From Tridacna crocea (taxonomy: Eukaryota; Mollusca; Bivalvia; Cardiida; Cardiidae): a stretch of 64,000 nucleotides of DNA. Position 1 is the first letter of the stretch. Every line of letters starts with the position of its first letter. The translations under genes and the position numbers were made by a program. The notes beneath the pieces are model-generated. The model was not told the DNA's origin. It worked only from the letters and a program-made list of their open reading frames with translations, and did not search any database. The stretch lies in the NCBI GenBank assembly GCA_943736015.1, contig OX031058.1, positions 1,999,001 through 2,063,000 on the forward strand, given 5' to 3'. Positions 2,871 to 64,000 of this stretch are shown piece by piece.

Positions 2871-48882
<46,012 letters not shown>

Positions 48883-49465: not shown

Positions 49466-49720
49466 AAAGAGGGCCAAGATGGCCCTGAATCGCTCACCTT
49501 GATTTTTGAGAGGACCACAGCCATTTTTTTTTTATATTTAAAGTTTTGAAATAAAATTGTTATTTTGCCAAGCAATTTTGAAAAGGTCACTTGTAAAAAT
49601 CATTTCAAAATCTGTCAACACCTCTACAACCATCACCACAGCCATGTTTTAGAGAAATCCAAATTCTGCTCATAAACTTTGGGATAGGTCACACAAGGAC
49701 CATTTTTTAACAAGAGCATA
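49466..49720 (+). mobile_element. aacaagaggg-type element, 5' fragment
   Basis: agagggccaagatggccctg and following bases match the start of the 24,951 element; broken off before any core unit. Confidence 0.6.
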
Positions 49721-49781
49721 TGCCCATTGGTGGCTGAAAATATCAGGTTGAACACTTGTTTGGTCCCAGTTTTCTTGTGTT

Positions 49782-49806
49782 ACCTAAACTGGCTTCTAGC
49801 CGAGGT
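49782..49806 (+). repeat. TTCTA hairpin left of element 1
   Basis: TGGC-TTCTA-GCCG with outer arms ACCT and AGGT, the same design as the retrotransposon hairpins, about 125 bp outside the 5' LTR. Confidence 0.45.
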
Positions 49807-49931
49807 GGTTTCACATGTTAGTTACAAATTAGGTCTACACAGAAAGGAAAGAAAGGCGACTTTAAATCAGGTTAGGGTATGACAGTGTAATCTTTACAGG
49901 CAGGAAGCGCCCAATTGACTGTAAAGCCAGT

Positions 49932-50194
49932 AGTGTTGTGACGTATGCAAAAATATCTACTCGAAACATTTTAGCGGGAAAAACCGACATCAGGGACCCA
50001 TCTACGAAGTACATGTATGAATTCACTCTCTTGAGAGCAGGCGAACCGTGCGGACGTTGCAAGACGACTTCTCCATAGAACCATAGAAGACAACGCCTAG
50101 ACAGAATTTCATACACGGTTACAGAACAGAAACCACAATAAGGACAGGTAATACTCTCCATTCCCTTTTTTGTTGCATTTTTGGCCACTCACTT
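49932..50194 (+). repeat. 5' LTR of element 1
   Basis: Starts agtgttgtgacgtatgc and ends ggccactcactt. It matches 58,597-58,842 over its length, apart from a 12-13 bp extra stretch near 50,014 and a small duplication near 50,085. The exact first and last bases are uncertain by one or two. Confidence 0.88.
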
Positions 50195-50198
50195 TATT

Positions 50199-50216
50199 TG
50201 GCGACGAGGATAAACT
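50199..50216 (+). other. Primer binding site
   Basis: tggcgacgaggataaac follows the LTR after a few bases, the position and TGGCGAC start usual for Ty3/gypsy tRNA primer sites. The tRNA was not identified. Confidence 0.6.
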
Positions 50217-50660
50217 TTCATTAGTTTTCGTTCAGTTTAACATAAATTTGTTTTTGTCTTCAATTTTCACGACTTGCACTAATTTTTCTTTTGTTTCAAT
50301 TTACTAAAAAAATTTTTGTAATTAAAGGGGAGAATTGTGGTTTACGTTCTTGAAATTAATTTTGATATTCATTTCAAGCCAGTATTTAGGTATTTTGGTA
50401 TTTCTTTTTTTTTTTACCAAAAAGCCTTCACATATTACAAGGTACAGTTGATTTTCAGCTTTCACTTTATAACTTTCAATTATCTGTAAGGTACTGGTTG
50501 TAGGTATCCAGGTTTAAGTGGGTTAGACTTTTTAGTATTTTCAATACCCCACCCACACATTTACAGCTTAGCCAGAGATTGGAAGATTTTGGTTTGGACC
50601 TTGTAAGCAGGATTTGTGAAAAAAGTAAGTGCATTATTTTTTCCTTTTGCAAATTTTCGG
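50217..50660 (+). other. 5' leader of element 1
   Basis: T-rich untranslated leader without an open frame. It contains taccccacccac (about 50,548), also present at 58,850 ahead of the gag of element 2, and caagccagta (about 50,385), resembling the flank left of the 5' LTR. Confidence 0.5.
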
Positions 50661-50885
50661 ATGAATATGTTCAAAGTAAACATCAATACAGCCCCAGCTG
50701 AGTCTTTACGTTTGGTCAGCGGCATTGGTGAGAAAAAAGCAAATGCTATCATGAAGCACAGACAAATTTATGGCAAAGTGACTAAAGAAGCTTTTGCTTT
50801 AATGTTTTTGGGAGAAATTCCTGATGGTGCTTGGGAATTGTTGGACTTTACTGAACCTTCTAGGTCAGATGTTCAATCTTTTTAG
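50661..50885 (+). CDS. Gag N-terminal helix-hairpin-helix domain, element 1
   Basis: The ATG at 50,661 (MNMFKVNIN) was chosen over the upstream GTG because element 2 starts alike (MNRMNIS). Residues 5-40 read VNINTAPAESLRLVSGIGEK then KANAIMKHR, the ComEA-type double HhH pattern in which GIG binds nucleic acid backbone. Residues after it, YGKVTKEAFALMFLG and WELLDFTEPSR, are also kept in element 2. A TAG at 50,883 stops the frame, but the same frame continues for 115 codons beyond it with coiled-coil sequence, so the stop looks like decay. Retrotransposon Gag proteins usually lack HhH, so the fusion is notable. Confidence 0.8.
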   Translation: MNMFKVNINTAPAESLRLVSGIGEKKANAIMKHRQIYGKVTKEAFALMFLGEIPDGAWELLDFTEPSRSDVQSF

Positions 50886-52430
50886 GGTGGGCAGAGGTCA
50901 AGGTCATCCTTCTTTGACTCCCCTGAAGTAGAAGCAGCCCAACTTAAAGCTGAAATTGAGGAGACTCAAGAGTCTTTGCGGCGTTTGTTAGCCTCCTCAG
51001 TTCCCCGCCCAAAAGTACCCCGTTTCCCAAATCTGGAACAATTAATTGAACAATTGCCTACACTTCCAAAGGAAAAGGTTGAGTCTGAAGATGCTGATAT
51101 ATATTTGTCATCTACGCCACCTAAACCCAAAACAAATAGGGATTCTTTGCAAATGTTTAATTTGGACACTTCCCATAAATATAATTCAGATCTTTCCTCT
51201 CTCCAAGAACTTCAGGAAAAAAACAGATAAACAAATTAGCGAATTGCAAAATTTAATTCTAAAACAACAGAACATACAAAAGTCATTGCAAGAATCAATA
51301 ATGCACTCAGAAAGAAAGGTAAGGTCTTCTAGACCAATAGAACAGAAAACGCATCTGTCTTCTAGACAGAGCGGGGAATATAGAGCTAGGTCTTCTAGAC
51401 CTACAGGACAGAATGACTCAATGGATGAGTCGGCGATGGCTTTAGGGATAAAAACTTCCGTACCACAGCCGTCAAAAATGAGCATAGATGGACTACAGTC
51501 TTCTAGACTGGACGCCCATCAAGATCACAGAAAGGGAATACAGTCTTTTAGACTGGACTCCCATCAGACAGGAGTAGATGGCATACAGTCTTCTAGACTG
51601 AATGCTATTCAGAGTAGGTCTGATTTTCGGTCTGATAGACTGGAAACCCAGCCAAGTATTAAAAAAGATAGCCAACTGTTTACTAGAGGTCAGGCCTTTA
51701 GATTGGACGATGATTATGGGTTGGAGACAAGACACTGGTGCCTATATTCAAGTAAATAATACCAGACCAAAGGTAATTCAAAACAATGCCAATGACTTCA
51801 CTGAAAAGAAAATGATACCCATATCCTTGGACCAGGTATTTGAATTTCATCCTGATAGTCCAAATATTTGCTGTAAATTCAGGTCACGTCTCCCTAAGTC
51901 CGTATCAGTAAACAAGAGAGGGGATCCACTTAGAACTCCCAGGAATTTAAAATTCGATGGAAAGACTAGTTGGTTTTCCTTCAAAAAATTATTTGATAGT
52001 TACAGGTCTGTTTACAATTGGTGTGACTAGGAATGTAGGGACTACCTGACTTGGAGTCTTGAGGGCAAAGCACTTGATTACTTCACCATTGCTACTAGAA
52101 TGGGGGAAGATTACAGTTTCGATGAAATTCTAAGAAAGTTAGAAAGTAGGTTTGGATCTTGCGATCTGACCCGAAACAACTAGGGTACATTTTCAAAATG
52201 CTTCTCAAAAGAATGAGGAATCTTTAGAAGATTGGGCAGATCGAGTTATGTCACTGGCAACATCAGCTTTCAATGATCTGCCTGAAGTTTATAGAGTACA
52301 GGAAGCAATTTCTAAATTTTGCCAAGGATGTCTTGATAAGGAAGCAGCCAAACATGCATGCTTCGAACATCCCAAAAGTATCCAAGAAGCCTTGAATGCC
52401 GTAAAACACCATCAATACATCTAATAGGAA
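50886..52430 (+). pseudogene. Gag middle and capsid region, element 1
   Basis: Continues the HhH frame with EAAQLKAEIEETQESL, a coiled coil, to a stop at 51,228. The coding sense then shifts at a run of seven A (about 51,218) into another frame to 51,757, and again near 51,720. The middle part is rich in SSRL/SSRP repeats that coincide with DNA hairpins. The capsid part has NLKFDGKTSWFSFKKLF, SYRSVYNW and DYLTWSLEGKALDYF, shared with element 2. Two further stops (52,029; about 52,180) interrupt it. Confidence 0.75.
51323..51600 (+). repeat. Six C-TTYTA-G hairpins in gag, element 1
   Basis: Sense-strand hairpins: GGTC/GACC at 51,323-51,335; TCTGTC/GACAGA at 51,354-51,370; TAGGTC/GACCTA at 51,387-51,403; CAGTC/GACTG at 51,496-51,510, 51,541-51,555 (loop TTTTA) and 51,586-51,600. 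They code for SSRP, SSRQ, SSRL or SFRL. Confidence 0.85.
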
Positions 52431-52697
52431 GTTGATGGACAGAAAACAAAAAATCGCAGACGCGATGATTTTTCTGTCAATGAAATCACAATAGAAGATG
52501 TGAAAAAGATAGTTAACGAGGCTTTAACAGCAAACAAGTCAGAAAATAAAAATAATACAGACCAAAATAAAGCAAAATCTGACGAAGAATGCTTCTTTTG
52601 CAAAAATAAAGGTCATTTTAAAAGAAAATACAAAGCATGGCTAAAGAGAAAGGAGAAGAAACAAAAAGATTCAAAAGAAAATAAAGATTTAAATTAA
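52431..52697 (+). pseudogene. Gag nucleocapsid zinc knuckle, element 1
   Basis: The frame holds ECFFCKNKGHFKRKYKAW, a CCHC knuckle in which the last cysteine has become tyrosine. In element 2 the same place reads CFFCKKAGHYKKDC with all four ligands. Basic tail with many lysines. Confidence 0.75.
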
Positions 52698-52801
52698 TAA
52701 GGACTGAGGCCGGGGACCACGTCCCTCAGTCCTGTGTCAAAGAAATACCAAGTGGTCAAAATAAAGTTGCCTTAAAAGAAAAAACGGTACATTCAGAGGA
52801 A

Positions 52802-53608
52802 AAGGCTTCTAGTCTTGAGAATGTACAGTACAAAGTTGAGGCTTCTAGTCTCAATAAAGTAAATCCAGAATTTAGCTTAACAGATATGCACAAAAAAGAA
52901 AACATCTTGAAAGTGCATAGGGTTTGTGCCGGTTCCTCCTTCATTCATTTGAAAGTCGGGGGGAAAGTTGTTAAAGCCAGAATCGATTCAGGCGCAGAAA
53001 TTTCAATTCTTTCAACTGCCATCTACAATGAATTAAAAGAAAAACCACAAAAAGTTTAAGATGTGGTCATGCAAATGGCTGATAAGAAAAATGTTTTGAA
53101 TGGCTTCATCACAAAGCCTATACAATTGGGAATTGGTAATCAAAATTTCAAGGAAAGACTTTATGTGGCACCCATAGCCGATGAGATGTTGCTGGGGCAC
53201 GACATCATGCATCATCTTGGTGTACTCCATGATATGTGCTCAGAAACGCTCATAGCCAATGGGGAAAAAATACCAATTACCACTTATCTAAAGGATGGCA
53301 AACCCTTAGTTGCTAGAATTTCTTTGACCAGGAAAGTTGTGGTGCCTCCAAATTCTGTTGTAAAAGTTCTAGGAAAATTGACAGATCCAGTTCGGGATTA
53401 TTGTTTGGAACCAGAAAACATCGTTTATGAGAAAGGAATTCTAATGCCTAGAACTATTAGACTATCAGGGGGTAAACCAGTCTTATGTTTTGTAAACCCC
53501 ACTGACAATTTTAAATCATTCAGAAAAAAATGACATAATAGCCAGTGCTTATGAAGTTGAAACTGTTTTTGAAGATATTGGCAACAAAGATTTGGCTTTT
53601 AGTCAAAT
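52802..53608 (+). repeat. Three TTYTA hairpins, gag-pol linkers of element 1
   Basis: AAGGC/GTCTT at 52,802-52,816, TTGAGGC/GTCTCAA at 52,836-52,854 and ATTTGGC/GTCAAAT with loop TTTTA at 53,590-53,608, using G-T pairs next to the loop. Confidence 0.8.
52913..53533 (+). pseudogene. Aspartic protease region, element 1
   Basis: VCAGSSFIHLKVGGK and ARIDSGAEISIL carry the retropepsin D-S-G active site (the usual DTG/DSG). A TAA at 53,057 cuts the frame. The following part (VMQMADKKNVLNGF, EMLLGHDIMHHLGVLHD) is the second half of the retropepsin fold with the ILG-like LLG. It processes Gag-Pol in active relatives. Confidence 0.8.
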
Positions 53609-53649
53609 GAGTTGTGAGGGGTCTATTTCAGTGATGGCTTCTAGCTGCA

Positions 53650-55260
53650 ATGATTCAGATCAGACACCAAATTTGCCAAAACATTTGCAAAGTGTATTTG
53701 AAGCATCAAAATCACTTAAATTCCTGTCAGGCGGGACATTTTTTACGGATCCTAAGGGATTACTCTGATGTCTTTGCTGAAAATGATTTTGATTTAGGCA
53801 ACTTTACGGCAATAGAACATGCTATAAACACTGGAGATGCGAAGCCAATTAAGCGAAAATTGCGCAGAACACCAGCATGCTTCGTCAATGAAGAGGAAGC
53901 TCACCTCAAAAAGATGATAGATGCTGGTGTAATTCAAGAATCATGTTCAGAATGGGCTTCGTCTCCCGTTCTCATAAGAAAAAGAGACGGATCAGTTCGC
54001 TGGTGTATTGATTATAGAGCCTTGAATGAGGTTACTGTAAAAGATACATTTCCATTACCTTTGGTCGAAGATTGTTTAGATACGTTGGCTGGGAATGTCT
54101 GGTTTTCTAAACTAGATGCTAATTCCGCATACTGGCAAGTTCGTGTCAAGCCAGAAGACAGTAAAAAGACAGCATTTTTAACAAAATTTGGGTTGTTTGA
54201 GCATATTAGAATGAGTTTTGGTCTAACAAATGCTCCAGCAACATTTTCAAGGGTAGTGAATTTCATTCTAAAAGGTCTGAAATGGAATGTTGTTCTAGCA
54301 TTTTTGGATGATATCTTGGTCATGGGGAAAACATTTGAAGATCACATAAGAAATTTGTGTGATGTCTTGCAAAGGTTCAGAGTACATGGCATGAAATTAA
54401 AGCCAAGGAAATGTGTTTTCTTTCAACCAGAAGTGGAATTTCTGGGTAGAAATGTCAATGGCGATTCTCTCTCAATGACACAGAAAGACACAGAAACGGT
54501 CAGAAATTGGCCTGAGCCAATTTCTGCAAAAGATGTAAAAAGGTTCCTTGGGCTGGCAAATTATCACAGATTATTTGTCAAGAATTTTGCAGAGTTAGCC
54601 CAACCCTTGTACAAACTGACAGGGGGTTGTCCCTTTGTTTGGGGAGAAAGGGAGAAAAAGTCCTTTGAATCTTTAAAAGCAGCATTAACAAGCCCACCAG
54701 TGTTAGCAATGCCTAACACAACAGACCAATTTATCTTGTATGTAGATGCATCCAATGTGGCCATAGGTGCTTAACTTATTCAAGTTCAAAATGGTGCAGA
54801 GAGAGTCATTGCTTATAGCAGTTTCTCTCTTACACCAGAGCAAAAGAAATACTAAACTACCAGAAAGGAGCTTCTCGCTATAGTTAGATTTACAAGACAG
54901 TGTCAATACTACCTTTTAGGTAATATCTTTACTGTACGTACACACCACTCCAGTCTTACTTCGTTATTGCGGTTCAAAGAACCGCAAGGCCAGCTAGCTA
55001 GATGGATTGTGGAACTATCTCAATACCATATGGTAGTAAAACATTGTGCGGGAATCAGACATGGAAATGCGGATGCACTTTCAAGGATCCCTGATCCTTT
55101 AAGTCCATGTTCTGATTATGTAGCTGGCATTAAGCCTGAAGATCTGCCATGTGGAGGTTGCAACTACTGCTCAAGGGCACATCGACAATGGGCAAGATTT
55201 TGCGAAGACATCAATGAGGCAGTAGGTTTAGCAAAGCGCGCAAGGGAGGCAACTCCCTAG
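53650..55260 (+). pseudogene. Reverse transcriptase and RNase H, element 1
   Basis: RT motifs in order: DAGVIQESCSEWASSPV, RWCIDYRALNEVTVKD, PLVEDCLDTL, FSKLDANSAYWQV, FGLTNAPATFSRVVNF, the catalytic FLDDILVMGKTFEDH, and FLGLANYHRLFVKNFA. RNase H follows at FILYVDASNVAIGA but is broken by TAA at 54,772 and 54,853; HGNADALSRIP marks its end. Opening frames upstream of about 53,745 are shifted. The FLDD form of YxDD is seen in Ty3/gypsy elements. Confidence 0.92.
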
Positions 55261-55380
55261 GGGGTGCACCATAAAGAAGCAGATGTCCAAAATGTTTAAC
55301 AAAGTTCAGTAGGAATTAATAAAATCACTTAAGAGGCCCCAAGGGTAGAGCAAGGGGGTCAGGGAGATCTTTTAGATCTG

Positions 55381-57058
55381 ATGGTCCCGGGTAATATCCA
55401 AGGATTGGGGGGGGGGGGGTCACAGGCCCATTTTAACATTGTGACATCTCGGGAAGACTTTGGTCATCACATTTCATGTTGCAATGTACAAACAAGCACT
55501 TCTAGTGCTCGTAACGGGGTTGACGAACCACATACCTGGGGTTACTCGAATAACGATATAAGGGAAGCACAACAAAGCGACAAGAAACTAGGCATGCTTT
55601 TAGCGTGGCTAGAACACAACAAGCAACCAAGTGAGAAGGATCTCTTTTTAGCTAGCGTCGAAGAGAAGAACCACTGGTTAAGTAAGGAGATGTATCATCT
55701 CAGAAATGGAGTATTGTTTAAATATGATGAAAAGGAGAAGGCAGGTGGGGATTCGCTTTTAGTGATTCCTGAAAGCCTCAAAGAATCTGCTATGTCCCTG
55801 CATCATGATATTCCATCATCCGGTCATCAGGGAGTAGCAAGAACTAAACAAAAACTTAAAGAAAAGTTCTACTGGTTTCATATGACTCGGGACATTGAAA
55901 ATTATGTTCTCACATGTAATGTGTGTAACAAAAACAAGAAAAACAAACAATATGGCAAAGTTCCCCTTACAGAATTTCAGGCCGGTGCACCTATGGAAAG
56001 GGTTCATATTGATTTTATAGGCCCATTACCAAAAACAAAAAATGGCAATGAACATTGTCTAATGATGGTGGACCAATTTACAAAGTTGGTGGAATGTATC
56101 CCACTACCATCTCAGCGGGATGAAGAAACTGCAAAAGCTGCAGTAGATAACTTCTTTTCGCGAATGGGGTTCCCTTTCCAGATTCTATCTGATCAGGGAA
56201 GAAATTTTGATGGTAAGTTGTTTGAGTCCCTTTGTAAGAGCTTACAGATCCACAAGGCAAGGACTACTCCGTATCGGCCTTCGGCCAACGGTCAGGTTGA
56301 GAGATTCAACCGAACCTTGTTGGATGCTGTCAGGTGTTTCTTGGGGAGAAAACAAGGTAAGTGGGATCAATACATCCAACAAATAGCAATGGCTATGAGG
56401 GCATCAGTAAATTCACTCCTAACAAATTAATGTTGGGAGAGAAGTTAATACTCCTGCACAATTGATGTTTGCAAACCAAAAAATCCATTCAAAAGACTAT
56501 TGTGAGTATGTAGCAGATCTTGAAAGAAATTTACAAATCGCTCACGATACAGCAAGAGCGAACTTGAAATGTTCCTCAAAGCGAATGAAAAGAAATTATG
56601 ATCTCAAGATCTTATTAAGACCTTATGCCGAGGGTGACATTATGTATCTTTTAGATACCGCTGTCATTAAGGGTAAGTGCAGAAAATTATGTTCACCATG
56701 GAAGGGCCCGGCAATTATCATAAAGAAACTGTCACCTTACATTTATAGAGTGAAATTAAATAAGTCTATATTTGTCGTAAACCATGATAAAATGATGCCT
56801 TGCAGGGATCGTAACTTACCTTCTTGGATCAAAAAATACAAGGAGTCGGCAGACGACCAAATAATGCCCCCTGATGATGATGATACTCTTTATTGTATTT
56901 GTCGTGAGCCTTGGAAAGGCAGGTTCATGATACAGCGTGACTTTTGCAATGAATGGTATCATGGGTCATGTGTAAATATAAGCATTTCAGACTCCTTGCA
57001 AATTGACAAATATAAGTGTGAAAACTGTAAGATAAATGATACCAGGGTAGAGTATTAA
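55381..57058 (+). pseudogene. Integrase with C-terminal PHD finger, element 1
   Basis: Zinc-binding HHCC: LHHDIPSSGHQGVAR and VLTCNVCNKNK. The core has VHIDFIGPLP (first Asp), ILSDQGRNFDG (second Asp) and ANGQVERFNRTL (Glu). The frame breaks near 56,400 and resumes before 56,462. The C-terminal part has the GPF/Y-like LCSPWKGPAIIIKKLSPYIY motif, then a PHD finger from about 56,885. Chromodomains are the usual C-terminal reader in this superfamily; here the reader is a PHD finger. Confidence 0.88.
56885..57030 (+). other. PHD finger module of the integrase
   Basis: LYCICREPWKGRFMIQRDFC then NEWYHGSCVNI and YKCENC follow the C4HC3 spacing of H3K4me3-type PHD fingers (CxC...FMIxCDxC..WYHxxC...YxCxxC). 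The third ligand Cys (MIQCD) is Arg here, so this copy has probably lost zinc binding at one site. Confidence 0.8.
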
Positions 57059-57088
57059 GAATGTTTATACTCCATTTCAGATTTCAAG

Positions 57089-58040
57089 ATGTCAGACTTA
57101 TCAGAGGTAAATAAACTCTTGAGCGGTGACTTCACCGTCGAAGGCCTGCACAGACGGGAGGGGGATCAGACTTCTAGTTTGGTATCCTTCTTCGTGGATG
57201 ACATCACGGATGTGCAGGCAGAACAGCTGCTCTACTCCCCGGAACCGCAAGACAGAAACGAGGCGTATGAGCCTACAGAGAGTGCGCATGGTCAACCCAG
57301 CACACCATGTCCGGATGTTAGAGTAGAGGCAGAAGGGACTTCTAGTCCCAGAAGATCCCAAAGGCTGGCGGCGGCTTCTAGTCCTGCTAGTGCTGAGGGT
57401 AAAAACACCAAAGATACCCCGACGGAAATTACCGAAGAAAAGATGCTTCTTTCCCAGTTCGCAAGATGGATGAAGCCATCAGGTGTTTTACATCTTTAAT
57501 ACAGCATCCACGTGTTTGTGCTCTGGGGGATGTAGGATTGGACAGAACAGAACCGGTGAGGGATTGGTCTAGCCAGCTGATACTACTGGAAAAAGTTCTG
57601 CCATTGCTACAGGATAGACACGTTCTTGTATTGCACTGTGAGGGATGGATGGAGATTGTGGAACAGAAGCCTTCCTGCAATTACTACTTTTTGTGCGTAA
57701 ACATGTCAAGCCTGCTCATCGTATCCACTTACATTGTTTTACGGGAAACTGTTATGTTGTTGAGAGATGGTTACAAGCTTTTCCTAACACCTTTTTCGGC
57801 TTCACAAACAAGATTAAGTCTTTTACACCAGATCAAATTGATGCGCTTAAAATGCTGGGAGAAGACCATTTACTGTTAGAGTCTGACGCACCATATTTCA
57901 CTGTTGGAAGACATCGTGTATCTTCACCGGGACAACTGTACACTGTGGCAAGACATATGGCTCGTCACCGAAGCCTTTCTGTAACCAAGGTGCTTCAAAT
58001 TACAACAACAAATGCTCGCAACCTGTATTGGAACGAGTAA
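57089..58040 (+). pseudogene. ORF3: TatD-type metal-dependent nuclease, element 1
   Basis: An extra ORF after integrase. The first 136 codons are acidic and low-complexity (SPRRSQRLAAASSP). Two frameshifts later the TatD/TATDN2-like TIM-barrel hydrolase appears: ALGDVGLDRTEPVRDWSSQL, VLVLHCEGW, RIHLHCFTGN, FPNTFFGFTNKI and LLLESDAPYF. These are the metal-site motifs (GE.GLD, HC, HCFTG, ESDAPY), with Asp in place of Glu in GDVGLD. The N-terminal HxH motif is not seen, so the domain start is missing or frame-lost. TatD enzymes are 3'-5' DNases; the role in the element is unknown. Confidence 0.8.
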
Positions 58041-58589
58041 TGGCAGAACCGCGGAGAACTGGCCTCAAGCCATGCTCCACTCCAGTAAAATAAGCTCTAG
58101 TACTGGTTAGTTACCCAGGGAAATTGGTTAAATGGCTGTGTGAAAATGATATACTGTCGGGTTACCTAAAAATTTTTTACAAAGCTTTTAGTTTTGCTAA
58201 CTTATTTTTAAAGACTACCAAAAGCCACTGAGACTAACTTTTGTTTATGAACAGACAATCATAATTTAGTGTAACGCAAGGCTTTTAGCTTTGCATGGAC
58301 TTCTATTACTCAGTGAACACGCAGAATTAATCAAGTTAGTGGACACTTTTAGAAGCAGAGCTTTTAGTTCTGCATAAGGACTTTTGACAAGGCTTATAGT
58401 TTTGTCACAGCAACTTAAATCTGGGCTAAGAGATCAAACACAAGCCTTTTAGTCTTGTAAGAATTATGTAATAATGGGCTTCTAGTCCATATAACCAATG
58501 ACATTGAGTGAATATTCCGATGACAGTTCCATGGAAATCCCGTATGTATACAGTTAGTGAGGATACCACTATAACCATTTTAAGAAAGT
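58041..58589 (+). other. 3' untranslated region with six TTNTA hairpins
   Basis: No open frame. Hairpins at 58,180-58,196, 58,276-58,294, 58,356-58,374, 58,385-58,407, 58,440-58,458 and 58,474-58,490 have C-TTNTA-G loops with 6, 7, 7, 9, 6 (one mismatch) and 6 base-pair stems of different sequence. Confidence 0.8.
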
Positions 58590-58596
58590 CGGGGGG
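58590..58596 (+). other. Polypurine tract
   Basis: The run cgggggg directly before the 3' LTR, within aagaaagtcggggggag; expected primer for plus-strand synthesis. Confidence 0.65.
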
Positions 58597-58842
58597 AGTG
58601 TTGTGACGTGTGCAAAAATATCTACTCGCAACATTTTTGGCGGGAAAAACCGACATCCGGGACCCATCTGCGAAGTATTCTCTCTCTTGAGAACAGGCGA
58701 ATCGTGCGGACGTTGCAAGACGACTTCTCCATAGAAGACAACGCCTAGACAGAATTTCATACACGATTACAAAACAGAAACCACAATAAGGACAGGTAAT
58801 ACTCCCCATTCCCTTTTTTGTTGCATATTTGGCCACTCACTT
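58597..58842 (+). repeat. 3' LTR of element 1
   Basis: agtgttgtgacgtgtgc to ggccactcactt, matching 49,932-50,194. It is followed by aagtacttaccccaccc, not by a second PBS. Confidence 0.88.
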
Positions 58843-59045
58843 AAGTACTTACCCCACCCACCTGTTTACAATTAGAAAGTTTTCTGTTATTTTCAGGTGT
58901 GCTTTCTAAGCACTTGAATGTAACTGTCAGTCATTGCTTTCTTTGTTTTGTTTAAATTGCATGCTTTTTCCTTACAGGTTTTGCATTTTGTTTATTTTTT
59001 TATTAAACACAAAAAATTGCCTGTATTCATTTCTCTTTGGAAAAA

Positions 59046-59344
59046 ATGAACAGAATGAACATCAGCACTGCAACTGTTTACCAACTCTGCAGCGTTAAAG
59101 GCATTGGCCAAAAAAGAGCAGAGGCCATTGTCTACCATAGAGATATGTATGGTCCGGTGACTAAAATGGCGTTCTCTATGATGATGATGGGGGCAGTTCA
59201 GGAAGAAACCTGGAATCAATTAGATTTCACTGTTCCTTCTAGAAAGCAACTTAAGAGAGAAAGGGCAGATAAGAGTTTATCACTTCTTTCTTTAACCTCA
59301 CTAGAGGCAGAAAGGGCTGAGCTTGAGTCTCAGATAAGTGAGAC
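59046..59344 (+). CDS. Gag N-terminal HhH domain and coiled coil, element 2
   Basis: Start ATG at 59,046 (MNRMNIS) rather than the TTG upstream. MNISTATVYQLCSVKGIGQK then RAEAIVYHRDMYG is the same HhH pattern as element 1, with GIG kept, followed by VTKMAFSMMMMG and WNQLDFTVPSRK. A coiled coil (LEAERAELESQISET) leads to the insertion point of the 822-bp element. The domain is conserved between two copies that differ at about half their residues, which argues for function. Confidence 0.8.
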
Positions 59345-60166
59345 CACAGGAATTTTGCATTCTATAACCAAAATAAATGATAAAATATGAAAAAAAATCT
59401 CCCCTATATAATGTAAACACAAGGAATGCAACGTCTCGATTGCCGGCACCAGCACAAGACGGCCTTTCCAACCCAAAATCACCCACGAAGCAAACATTGA
59501 TCATAATTTCCTTTAGCCTAGCGATAGACAACACAACAATCATTCAATGTACCAGCGACATTCGGCGATTCCTCAGTAGGCACCTTTTAACCGGAGATGT
59601 CCGTCATGTTTTAAGATTTTCTTGACAATTTCTATTTGTCTGGGTAGCCATTCGCTGACCTCACTCGATTCCCGTGAACGGTCCAATAGGGCTTAAGTTT
59701 ATAGAGTTACCTCGCTTGATGGGGGATTTCCCTATTCACAAAAGTCAAATATCTTTTCTTTAAATAAGGAATGCGCTCAAATACATTTGTTAGTTACTTC
59801 TAGAAAAATCTTTAGTATCATGTGATGTCCATAGATATATCTTAAAAACGAAAAAAAAAAAAAGCAATAATACGAAAATACGCTTCCTGGCTCTTCCTGT
59901 GACGTCAGCGAATGGCCACCCAGACAAATAGAAATTGTCAAAAACAACTTAAAACATGACGGATATCTCCGGATAAAAGGTGTATACTGAGGAATCGCCG
60001 GATTTCGCTGGTATATTGTTGTGTTGTGTATCGCTAGGCTAAAGGAAATTATGATCAATGTTTGTTTTGTGGGTGATTTTGGGTTGGAAAGGCTGTCTTG
60101 TGCTAGGGGAGATTTTTTTTTCATATTTTATCATTTATTTTGGTTATATAATGTCAAATTCCTGTG
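59345..60166. mobile_element. 822-bp DNA element with long terminal inverted repeats
   Basis: Left end CACAGGAATTTTGCATTC and right end, inverted, CACAGGAATTTGACATTA. The arms continue for about 270-315 bp (59,345-59,663 and 59,899-60,166) at high identity, the left one with about 45 extra bases. GTGAGAC flanks both sides (59,338-59,344; 60,167-60,173). No transposase frame, so non-autonomous. Target length and ends do not settle the superfamily. Confidence 0.88.
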
Positions 60167-61480
60167 GTGAGACTGAGGATCGGCTACGTAGGCTTCTGTC
60201 ACAAAGTGATGTAAGGCCTACTAAAAAAAAGCCAGGGATTTGAGCAATTGTTTTCGGAATTGACAACAGTTTCAAAGACTCCTGCTACTTTCCAAACCCC
60301 ACCCATCAAACTAGACCTTCTATGCAAAAAAAAATAGAAATACTTGTTACATGTTTTGCATAAACTGAGCAATTTGACAAGTTGGTTTCTCCACCTAAAC
60401 CAACTCTCCATCTGCAGCCACCCAAATCACCTTTGCCTGCACCCAGGCAAAGCCCATTGGAAACACAGATGAATATGGTAACTTTGCAAGTCCTCCAAGA
60501 ACAGACAGCCAAACAAATTCAAGCCTTGCAGAGATTGATTAGGACCCAGTTGGAGTTGCAGCAGTCGCTGGCGCAGCAGCCGGCAATTTTTGATTTGTCT
60601 TCTAGACAAGCGGCTGCTGTGGATATGTCTTCTAGACAATCATCCGTGCACACTGCCACTCCATGTGTCCCTCCAGGATTCAAGCCTCTCACACAGGAGT
60701 TTGAGAATCTGGAGAAACAGGTTCCAAAGAAAAGTACTTCCATTAAAGAACAATTAGCTCAGCCGCCTATTCAAAGACTCACTAGCACAAGCAAAAAATC
60801 CAGGAAGTTGAGGGTCAACAGAAGACCGACTGGATTCTATCCGGACGAGTCTTCCTCAAGTTCCAGTTCTAGTTCTCCTAAACCTGAAATGGCTTTGGTC
60901 AGGCAGGCGTCTTCTAGACCCGCCATTCTGAAAAGAGGGAAACCGGCTCTGCTGCCAAAAAATCTACATTTTAATGGCAAGACGAGCTGGTTCTCTTTCA
61001 GAAAAATGTTTGAGAGCTATAGGTCGGTTTTTAACTGGGGAGAGCAGGAATGCAAGGATTATTTGACTTGGAGTCTAGAAGGAAAGCCTTTAGATTTCTT
61101 CACCATTACAGTGAGGATGGATGAAGAATTTACTTTCAAGGAAATACTCAAAAAACTTGAAAGTAGGTTTGGCTCCGTTGACTTGATTGAAACTGCCCGA
61201 GTCAACTTCAGCAAGCCTCTCAACGACCAGAGGAAACTTTGGAGGACTGGGCAGATAGGGTTATGACCCTTGCTACATCAGCCTACAAGGACTTGCCTGA
61301 AAGTCACGGAATTCAGGAGGCTGTTAGTCATGTTTGTTTGTTGAAAGAGGCAGCCAAACATGCTTGCCTTGAAAATAATAAAAAAAAAAACATTCAACAG
61401 GCTTAAAATCTGGTGAAACACCACCAATATATTGGCTGTTGATGGACAGAAAAATAAAAGTATGAAATCTACAGACCAAG
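60167..61480 (+). pseudogene. Gag middle and capsid region, element 2
   Basis: Resumes as EDRLRRLLSQSDVRPTKKK after the inserted element, in the frame expected if that element and one target copy are ignored. A one-base slip near 60,241 leads into QVLQEQTAKQIQALQRLI (coiled coil), SSRQ repeats, a serine run and the capsid HFNGKTSWFSFRKMFESY, DYLTWSLEGKPLDFF and ILKKLESRFGSVDL. A further frameshift lies near 61,230. Homologous to 50,950-52,430. Confidence 0.8.
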
Positions 61481-61686
61481 TGTACATAAATCAGATAACC
61501 CTGGATGAAGTAAAAAAAAAAGGTCGTTGCTGAAGCAATTAAGTCAGAAAATGACAAAAGAAAGGCCAAATCAGGAGATCTTTGTTTCTTTTGTAAAAAG
61601 GCTGGCCATTACAAAAAAGATTGTAAAAGGTACAAGGCCTGGTTACAGAAGAAAAACAAAGAAACCCAGCAGAATTTAAACGGGTA
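61481..61686 (+). pseudogene. Gag zinc knuckle, element 2
   Basis: DLCFFCKKAGHYKKDCKRYK has all four CCHC ligands, followed by AWLQKKNKETQQNLNG and a stop. A run of nine A near 61,513 probably breaks the upstream frame. Confidence 0.8.
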
Positions 61687-61869
61687 AGCACTGAGGTCAA
61701 GGACCACGCCCCTCAGTCCTCTGTCAAAGAAACAATTAAAAGTGGTAAAACTCAGTTGAAGGTCGCGGTTTCTAACCTGACTTCTGAGTCCGTCTCGGTC
61801 TCTAACCAGACTAAAGGAAGTACTTAGTAATACTGCGACCATTGTTGATCCTAATCCTCCTACCTTTAA

Positions 61870-62454
61870 GTATGAAACAGTTAAGGTACACATGGTTTGT
61901 GCAGGTTCTTCTTTCATTAATTTGAAAGTCGGGGGGAGAGATATTCAGGCTAGGATTGACTCGGAAGTAGAAATTTCTATTCTCCTATTCTCTCCAAGCA
62001 GGTTTACGATACCTTGAAGCAAAAACCTAAAAGGATCAAGGATATCGTGATGCAGATGGCGGATAGGGACAACGTTTTACCAGGTTTCATAGTTAAACCT
62101 GTGCAGATATGTCTTGGCTCCCAGATAATTAGGGAAAGACTTTATGTCGCCCCTATTTCAGACGAAATGTTGTTGGGAAAAGGCATCATGCACCATTTGG
62201 GTGTCTTACATGATATGAAGTCTGACACGCTTGTGGTGAATGGAGAAAGCGTCCCTGTCACGACACATTTGCAAGATAAAAAACCTGTTGTGGCTAGGGC
62301 GTCTTTGACAAAAAGGGTGGTGGTCCCTCACAATTCTGTCGTTCGTGTTGCGTGTAAATTGGACGACCAGCTGGGTGATTATTATCTAGAACCTGGTGAT
62401 CTGATACACCAAAGAAAGGTACTTAATGTCTTGCATTGTCAGATCTGCCGGTGA
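61870..62454 (+). pseudogene. Protease region, element 2
   Basis: VCAGSSFINLKVGG and ARIDSEVEISIL align with element 1, but the active-site Gly after D-S is Glu, which should inactivate it. The frame shifts near 61,985 and resumes as VMQMADRDNVLPGF and EMLLGKGIMHHLGVLHD. Confidence 0.75.
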
Positions 62455-63591
62455 TAGACCGATCATCTGTCTGGTCAACCCCACCCATAATTTCAAAACA
62501 TTGAAAAAGAATGAAATTATTACGAATGCACACGAAATTGACACTGTTTTGGGGGACATGCACAGTGAAGATGACAGAATGGCTTCTAGCCAATCTTCCA
62601 TATCAGGGTCTAGTAGTGTTGCGGCTTCTAGCCCAACAAAGCACAATCATGGAATAAGGTTTGTTCCGGCTTCTAGTCCAACTAATTTACGCCAGAAGTC
62701 AAGGTCAGTTGTTGCGGCTTCTAGCTCAACGGAAAAACCCAATGGTCACGAATCAGTAAATCTTGTGGCTTCTAGCCACAAAGGTGAGAGTAATATAGCT
62801 GTGGAATTACCATTGCATTTGCAGGGTGTGTTTGAGGCATCCAGAACGCACCTTAATGCAGAGCAAGAATCGAAATTAGCTGGCGTTCTACGAAGCTATG
62901 CCGATGTCTTTGCTCAACGTGATTTGACCTTGGTCAATTCACAGCTATAGAGCATCCAATTGATACAGGTTACGCTAAGCCTATCAAACAAAGAATGCGC
63001 AGAAGACCTGCGTGTTTTGTTGATGAGGAAGAAGCTCACCTGAAGAAAATGTTGGATGCAGGCGTCATTCAGGAATCTGTGTCTGAATTGGCTTCTTCTC
63101 CTGTTTTAATCAGGAAAAGAGCTGGCTCAGTTCGGTGGTGCATAGACTACCGAGCTTTGAATGACGTCACAGTTAAAGACACATTCCCATTACCACCAGT
63201 TGAAAATTGTCTTGACACGCTGGTAGGAAACATCTGGTTTTCTAAACTAGATGCAAATTCTGCTTATTGGCAAGTTGAGGTCAAAGAGGAAGACTGTGAG
63301 AAAATAGCTTTTCTTACCAAGTTCGGACTTTTTGAACACATTAAGATGGGTTTTGGTCTGACCAATGCACCCGCCACATTCTCCCGGATTGTCAACTTCG
63401 TACTGAAGGGACTGACCTGGAAGATTGTGCTTGCCTTTTTAGATGACATTCCTGTAGAGGGAAAAACTTTTGAAGAGCACTTGCAAAATCTATGTCAAGT
63501 CCTGAATAGATTTAGAACACATGGTATGAAACTGAAGTATAAGAAATGCCTCTTCTTTCAAAATGAAGTGGAGTTCCCGGGCAGATCTTAA
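62455..63591 (+). pseudogene. Pol linker and reverse transcriptase, element 2
   Basis: A linker with five ASS tripeptides (each over a TTCTA hairpin) leads to LPLHLQGVFEASRTHL, then after a frameshift near 62,940 to RT: DAGVIQESVSELASSPV, RWCIDYRALNDVTVKD, FSKLDANSAYWQV, FGLTNAPATFSRIVNF and FLDDIPVEGKTFEEH. The frame breaks again near 63,590. Confidence 0.9.
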
Positions 63592-64000
63592 GTGGAAACT
63601 CTTTATCCATGACAGAGAAGGATACAGAAACTGTTAGAAATTGGCCAACAGCCAAAAATTCTAAAGATGTCGAACGATTTCTTGGGTTAGCTAATTACCA
63701 TAGAATGTTCGTAAAAGATTTTGCAGAGATCGCTCGTCCTCTGTACAAACTGACAGGGGGAAAAACCCTTTACATGGGGTGAAGAGCATCAGGGTGCTTT
63801 TGAAAAGTTAAAAGCAGTACTTACAAGTCCACCTGTTCTAGCCTCACCGAACGTCAATGATTCCTTCATTTTGGATGTGGATGCATCTCAGTTTTCCATA
63901 GGCGCTGAGTTGATTCAGTTGCAGAATGGGGTTCAGAAGGTGATTGCTTTTAGCAGTTTTTCTCTGACCCCTGAGCAACAGAATTATTGCACCACCCGGA
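63592..64000 (+). pseudogene. RT connection and RNase H start, element 2, cut by window
   Basis: In shifted frames: DVERFLGLANYHRMFVKDFA, LYKLTGG and then the RNase H start FILDVDASQFSIGAELIQLQ and VIAFSSFSLTPEQQN. A frame change lies at the ggggg/aaaa runs near 63,757. Confidence 0.8.

Follow-up and report, generated by a model that had tools for sequence, protein, structure and literature searches.

The right end of a 64,000-nucleotide stretch of the Tridacna crocea genome (contig OX031058.1, positions 1,999,001 to 2,063,000 of the forward strand; hereafter the window, numbered from its first letter) is occupied by two related Ty3/gypsy-like long terminal repeat (LTR) elements, A and B, and in these two related subfamilies we find a strand-specific, loop-conserved RNA motif with paired but variable stems. 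An earlier sequence-only reading had described more than 30 short hairpins with the loop TTCTA, TTTTA or, twice, TTATA, and our count agrees: the sense strand of 49700-64000 holds 40 CTTNTAG sites (N is C in 25, T in 13 and A in 2), of which 33 form the apical loop in minimum-free-energy (MFE) folds of 45 nt. The sites are spread over both elements as that reading had it (28 in A, 12 in B), with the correction that A lies inside B, and most fall within its range of 51323..63957, those at 49794 and 50858 being further left.

Within 49931-64000 the motif occurs 39 times on the sense strand and 4 times on the antisense strand (shuffle mean 3.8, maximum 9 in 100 shuffles). Counting only uninterrupted stems of at least 5 pairs, with C-G included and U-A excluded, there are 23 hairpins on the sense strand and 0 on the antisense strand (shuffle mean 0.087, maximum 1 in 300 shuffles), so the claim that the hairpins are confined to the sense strand holds and the proposed antisense count comes out in its favour. 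The same is true of the proposed codon shuffles: 17 hairpins stand in 22 open coding pieces, whereas synonymous-codon shuffles leave 0.75 (maximum 5 in 500 shuffles). These pieces overlap, and site 53639 lies in two of them and is counted twice among the 31 motifs, while the 17 hairpins are distinct. When all pentamers were tried as loops only TTCTA (16 of 47 occurrences) and TTTTA (11 of 39) stood out, the next-best sense pentamer giving 3 hairpins. Changing one letter of TTCTA at any place but N yields 12 variants, 11 of them with 0 hairpins and one with 1; TTGTA gave 0 in 13 occurrences. No C-TTNTA-G hairpin of 5 or more pairs occurs on either strand of window 1-49700. The closing pair, described before as almost always C-G, is C-G in 23 of the 29 TTNTA hairpins of 5 or more pairs from 51360 onward, a clear majority for which "almost always" is slightly strong. 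These counts confirm that the hairpin family is genuine and far above chance.

Pairing was measured with U-A as pair 1 and C-G as pair 2, against a null in which the 3′ arms were redistributed among sites. At the 40 sites pairs 3-6 are formed in 90, 97, 82 and 68 percent, against 46, 59, 36 and 36 percent after permutation (z 6.0, 7.4, 6.7 and 5.0); past pair 6 the excess is small (z −0.8 to 1.6). We pooled 117 sites from the window and the genomic copies L062, L061 and L044, of which 91 were kept as distinct for the G-U and A-C counts; in the 45 kept as non-redundant (7 of 16 flank letters apart) pairs 3-6 are formed in 84, 93, 76 and 51 percent (z 6.2, 6.8, 6.0 and 2.6). Neither control shows a rise at pairs 3-6, be it 41 CTTNTAG sites from elsewhere (z −2.1, 1.6, −0.2 and 1.2) or 17 one-letter loop variants within the elements (z −0.4, 1.3, −0.5 and 1.0). 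Furthermore, G-U outnumbers A-C by 20:3 in the window and 39:8 at the 91 distinct sites (pairs 3-5), by 21:7 and 41:15 in the same two sets (pairs 3-6), and by 28:14 at the 45 non-redundant sites (pairs 3-7). This excess on the sense strand indicates that it is the sense RNA that is under selection, as had been suggested from the G-T pairs. Taken together, strand counts, codon shuffles, pairing and G-U bias bear out the proposal that selection acts on an RNA stem-loop rather than on protein.

The five-base loop of the sequence-only reading stands as to its letters, but the best description of its shape is a three-base UNU loop resting on a U-A pair and then a C-G pair, C-U-[UNU]-A-G. Operators of the MS2/PP7 type have a single unpaired 5′ base at a fixed distance from the loop, and for such a base the picture here is mixed: a 5′ bulge after pair 4 followed by at least 3 pairs is present at 5 of the 40 window sites, at 11 of 62 pooled sites chosen as 7 of 20 flank letters apart, and at 23 of 98 distinct pooled sites, compared with permuted means of 1.0, 1.6 and 3.1 and maxima of 4, 7 and 8. 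The mirror bulge on the 3′ side was found 0 times in each of these sets. In a different set of 117 distinct sites from six sources, 66 are best read as uninterrupted stems by our own scoring.

The elements that carry these hairpins are Ty3/gypsy LTR retrotransposons (Metaviridae), with an LTR pair, gag and the protease-reverse transcriptase (RT)-RNase H-integrase order all present. A codes for an HhH frame, Gag, a weak protease match, RT, RNase H, integrase, a PHD finger, ORF3 and a TatD-like domain; RVT_1 (6.4e-32), RT_RNaseH_2, Integrase_H2C2 and rve all match above cut-off and the protease below it. A PNMA-type capsid match is below cut-off in B and above it in L061, a B copy that spans the site of the A insertion. 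Positions 636-814 of L061 correspond to window 49754-49932 and positions 811-1313 to window 58844-59344; A is thus inserted into B, and the two L061 matches flanking it overlap by 4 bases (AGTA), which is compatible with a target-site duplication. The Gags of L061 and of the A-type copy L044 are 65 percent identical. Both window copies are interrupted in places, and long open pol frames are present in many B-type copies elsewhere. The listed homologues include bivalve-, gastropod- and crinoid-named sequences; set A1 took in 42 of 120 listed homologues (of 429) plus the window. The PHD finger lies 3′ of the integrase (window 56423-57058), PF00628 together with integrase domains being common to many of the listed homologues, and the TatD-like nuclease domain lies in the 3′ part of A (window 57403-58040). 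Several other A-type copies carry about 0.9 kb extra near window position ~57443, and for that reason the window copy of A looks internally deleted. Features and hairpin sites are as follows, with hairpins named by loop position.

49794..49798, plus strand: hairpin (loop TTCTA) belonging to B, to the left of the inserted A (45-nt fold, L061 match)
49933..50197, ends approximate, plus strand: 5′ LTR of A (query 49934-50194 matches 58599-58842)
50199..50211, plus strand: primer-binding-site-like TGGCGACGAGGAT of A (from sequence), for which we take tRNA-Ser to be a candidate primer
50607..50885, plus strand: HhH open frame, start of the gag region of A (PF12836, 6.6e-10)
50858..50862, plus strand: hairpin loop with bulged stem in the HhH frame of A (45-nt fold)
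51323..51600, plus strand: six hairpins (51327, 51360, 51393, 51501, 51546, 51591) in the gag N-terminal linker of A, lying in local 45-nt units plus a 66-nt pair (45-nt fold)
52428..52697, plus strand: nucleocapsid (NC) region of A; its CFFC knuckle seems incomplete in the window copy (zf-CCHC E only 0.078) and is intact in other copies
52800..52857, plus strand: two hairpins (52807, 52843) between NC and protease of A (fold/stem scan)
53590..53650, plus strand: two hairpins (53597, 53639) in the protease-RT linker of A (45-nt fold)
54806..54925, plus strand: two hairpins (54813, 54914) in the RNase H region (45-nt fold)
55363..55770, plus strand: four hairpins (55370, 55500, 55598, 55757) from RNase H to the integrase core (45-nt fold)
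56642..56660, plus strand: one hairpin (56649) in the integrase C-terminal part (45-nt fold)
57165..57390, plus strand: three sites (57172, 57340, 57376) in ORF3 (fold/stem scan)
58180..58492, plus strand: seven CTTNTAG sites (58186, 58283, 58347, 58362, 58394, 58447, 58480) in the presumed 3′ untranslated region (UTR) of A
58599..58843, plus strand: 3′ LTR of A (LTR self-match)
60593..60920, plus strand: three hairpins (60600, 60630, 60912) in gag of B (45-nt fold)
62577..62785, plus strand: five sites (62584, 62626, 62671, 62719, 62770) in the B protease-RT linker at intervals of 42-51 nt, with a 5′ bulge at 62626 and 62719 (3 of 5 in 45-nt MFE folds)
63941..63960, plus strand: one hairpin (63948) in the B RNase H region, a homologue of 54813 (alignment)

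The sites lie, as described before, in gag, pol linkers, integrase, ORF3 and 3′ UTR, with the correction that 53640-54812 and 55758-56648, which make up most of the RT and integrase cores, are free of sites. In the presumed 3′ UTR of A, downstream of the TatD-like frame and upstream of the 3′ LTR, the seven sites lie within 295 nt and six of them fold.

We searched the 1.05-Gb genome (31 contigs) for further copies and fetched a hand-picked 20 of 42 matches as 10-kb stretches including flanks. All 20 have CTTNTAG hairpins on the sense strand only. Nine A-type copies sum to 166 motifs and 94 hairpins on the sense strand against 20 and 0 on the antisense strand; ten B-type copies, near-identical and hence not independent, sum to 310 and 77 against 40 and 0; and the extended B of the window has 32 and 6 on the sense strand, 3 and 0 on the other. 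Signal is weakest in the truncated L049, with 6 sense and 4 antisense motifs and 2 hairpins. Sites number 28 in the window A, 31 in L044 (30 folding) and 34 in the L061 stretch (30 folding), or about 30 per element. Two LTR-bounded derivatives of about 4.2 kb, L069 and L070, retain hairpins; L070 is without most of pol, and L069 has ORF3 and the 3′ UTR together with an inverted integrase piece. With one copy apiece, they are no proof of mobilisation.

Elements related to A and B in the same genome differ in this respect. The five sister elements fetched (L063, L064, L066, L065 and L067, with RT identities of 68, 61, 59, 50 and 45 percent) show between 0 and 4 motifs on each strand and lack any hairpin of 5 or more pairs in 9.9-kb stretches that possibly stop short of the element ends. 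A partial element, L068 (RT 74 percent), has 10 sense motifs and 1 antisense motif. Further afield, 34 distant RT-bearing contigs from prokaryote assemblies, taken as eukaryotic contamination (203 kb), gave 91 motifs and 2 hairpins over both strands and no pentaloop with more than 4 hairpins. On these counts, and with all five fetched sisters empty, we set aside a general Ty3/gypsy feature. Three scans of viral contigs and a first scan of genome contigs found no relative; a second genome-contig scan yielded the 34 distant contigs.

The sisters also differ in Gag. In a Gag tree (81 pieces passed, thinned to 24 rows, with no Gag row from L065), A and B share a 20-row clade with foreign Gags, at a support of 92/99 that does not reach the tool's star, and L063, L064, L066 and L067 fall outside it. 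The positions of L067 and P0197 are unsure since their rows are very long. The pattern Y..W[LV] follows the knuckle in 15 of the 16 clade rows with a visible knuckle (the exception is P0130) and is missing in the four outsiders; the hairpin-bearing A and B thus have a Gag knuckle with a Y..WL extension and the four hairpin-free sisters do not. The closest PDB sequences to the knuckle region are those of TUT4/TUT7 and of Gag knuckles, although so short a domain is informative on class only. Eight foreign Gags (P0129 and relatives) contain 14 to 23 units each of a 13/18-residue repeat, by a pattern of our own, with the core [TA][SF]S[TA], which fits GGTAC-TTYTA-GTRCC, in 124 of 150 units; the 26 misfits include TSCT, TFCT, TYCT and ISST. 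This core is what GGTACTTYTAGTRCC would encode, and as a lead, from proteins in which codons are not visible, these repeats may be hairpin-coding units. The relatives' Gags P0131, P0136, P0184, P0187 and P0193 have an HhH domain and then, ahead of the capsid part, a long RS-rich stretch.

We propose that the roughly 30 hairpins in the sense RNA of each element are copies of a single recognition hairpin: a UNU triloop with U-A and C-G closure, an upper stem that varies and, often, one unpaired base on the 5′ side, four pairs beneath the triloop. A protein would bind the apical C-U-UNU-A-G at many points of the RNA, and its likeliest identity would be the element's own Gag, acting via the CCHC knuckle with the Y..WL extension; Gag would thereby select and condense its own genomic RNA during particle assembly, like coat proteins with dispersed packaging signals. 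Gag is our best guess because it is made by the element, because its knuckle differs in the hairpin-bearing clade, because the sites are distributed over the RNA, 3′ UTR included, and because the form appears operator-like, with a 5′ bulge, short upper stem and small loop resembling those of coat-protein operators. We put at roughly even chances that these are dispersed recognition hairpins, putatively read by Gag and acting like packaging signals. The broader view, that an animal Ty3/gypsy clade evolved a coat-protein-operator system of about 30 near-identical triloop operators per element, dispersed through the genome partly via codon choice and putatively read by a modified Gag zinc knuckle, as an RNA-borne assembly code like that of RNA phages, is tentative and falls a little short of even.

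Several observations weigh against a Gag-read packaging signal. A host reader would yield an identical pattern. The leader of A (50212-50606), the usual place of retroviral signals, holds zero sites. Seven of the 40 sites lack the apical loop in the 45-nt MFE fold: 52807 and 57340 (yet with 5-pair stems), 62626 (a bulged stem), 62671, and 58347, 59237 and 59798 (a single pair). The association of hairpin and knuckle is a single phylogenetic contrast, other clade members being known from proteins alone. Finally, covariation within subfamilies is weak. The earlier claim of covarying stems stands for different sites, whose stems differ yet pair (z 5.0-7.4 above), but the proposed check at homologous sites of close copies gave little: in A copies pairing persists in 24 of 50 changed cells at target stems and in 143 of 397 at control hairpins; double changes number 0 at the targets, and of those in the controls 7 preserve pairing and 8 do not. 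Divergence among A copies is probably mostly decay after insertion. Target stems are less often changed (50 of 638 cells, 397 of 3155 in controls), which protein constraint could also explain. In B copies only two target sites are testable; there 9 of 10 changed cells are still paired, compared with 92 of 198 for controls. The comparison of A with B offers a single informative homologous coding site (window 55757, L061 6184): judged by eye from the alignment, four outer pairs differ, three of them still form, two of these changed on both sides, and the next pair outward is unpaired in L061. The remaining homologous sites keep loop and position with few informative changes, one pair being broken at L061 6028. 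On balance the interpretation first put forward is partly supported.

A host RNA-binding protein that reads the hairpins for export, localisation, stabilisation or shielding of unspliced RNA is an unlikely reader, though the antisense and codon-shuffle counts, the pairing and the G-U bias would be the same and the sites occur in coding and non-coding parts alike. A precedent is the Cer1 LTR element, which relies on a dedicated factor to export its genomic RNA from the nucleus (PMC10309623). Yet all five fetched sisters of the same host are hairpin-free, so the host makes no general demand for hairpins on such elements, and the remaining 49.7 kb of the window has no such hairpin either. Less probable still is another reader encoded by the element, the HhH part of Gag or the ORF3/TatD-like product, for example one repressing translation in favour of packaging. 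Translational repression is a known use of coat-binding hairpins. Such use is described for MS2 TR (PMC6281560), and A does encode HhH and TatD domains; against this, no hairpin sits at one single controlling start site, and HhH is also present in the hairpin-free L064, weaker and below the Pfam cut-off, making it a poorer candidate than the Gag knuckle.

We regard as very improbable that the hairpins are a by-product, devoid of RNA function, of local tandem duplication of hairpin-bearing peptide units. Local repeats do occur at 30, 36, 45 and 66 nt, and some stretches encode repeats such as QSSRL and ASS, but the UTR sites are non-coding, the hairpins are lost on codon shuffling, and pairing exceeds the arm-permuted controls at the 45 non-redundant sites (pairs 3-6) and in the 62-site set; codon shuffles, arm-permuted pairing and the bulge test together led us to set aside duplicated peptide repeats alone. 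A DNA-level feature, such as a cruciform or an integrase/HhH target, is the least credible of all, for although the stems are also inverted repeats in DNA, the G-T over A-C asymmetry given above at pairs 3-5, 3-6 and 3-7 speaks against it.

In architecture the likeness to dispersed packaging signals that had been noted holds, as the elements have multiple stem-loops with one recognition motif. MS2 and STNV likewise have many stem-loops along the genome with a common loop motif and variable stems; here, in contrast, the carrier is a retrotransposon, the loop is a near-invariant UNU triloop and the binding protein is putative. Like retroviral psi and the Ty3 packaging sequences, the hairpins would serve selection of genomic RNA by Gag. 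The iron-responsive element has a 5′ bulged base below its upper stem and a triloop-like apex, in which it is similar, but it differs in loop sequence and upper-stem length; we set it aside, with no Rfam match (Rfam 15 gave 0 matches at gathering score in the window). The Roquin constitutive decay element, a triloop hairpin with U-A near the loop, demands a pyrimidine-purine-pyrimidine triloop and was rejected, the centre being a pyrimidine at 38 of the 40 sites and a purine at 2. Pus7 pseudouridylation sites are UNUAR, which the U-N-U-A-G of the loop matches by sequence alone. MS2 also uses a base in a 5′ bulge (PMC6281560). The way in which LTR retrotransposons select their own RNA is poorly defined (PMC11381356, for Ty3). 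A literature search covering few subscription papers found no earlier description of such hairpins in a retrotransposon. A candidate RNA-selection signal in about 30 copies per element, with hairpin-free sisters of the same genome as natural controls, thereby makes the dispersed packaging-signal idea directly testable beyond RNA viruses.

Two other hairpin types were noted elsewhere in the window. In 1-50500 both strands repeatedly hold hairpins whose loops are GTTAC/GTAAC and GGTAACC/GGTTACC, probably a separate palindromic repeat. An AGGTTT-stemmed hairpin is present in four copies at 41273-42005 and is apparently a local repeat unconnected with A and B.

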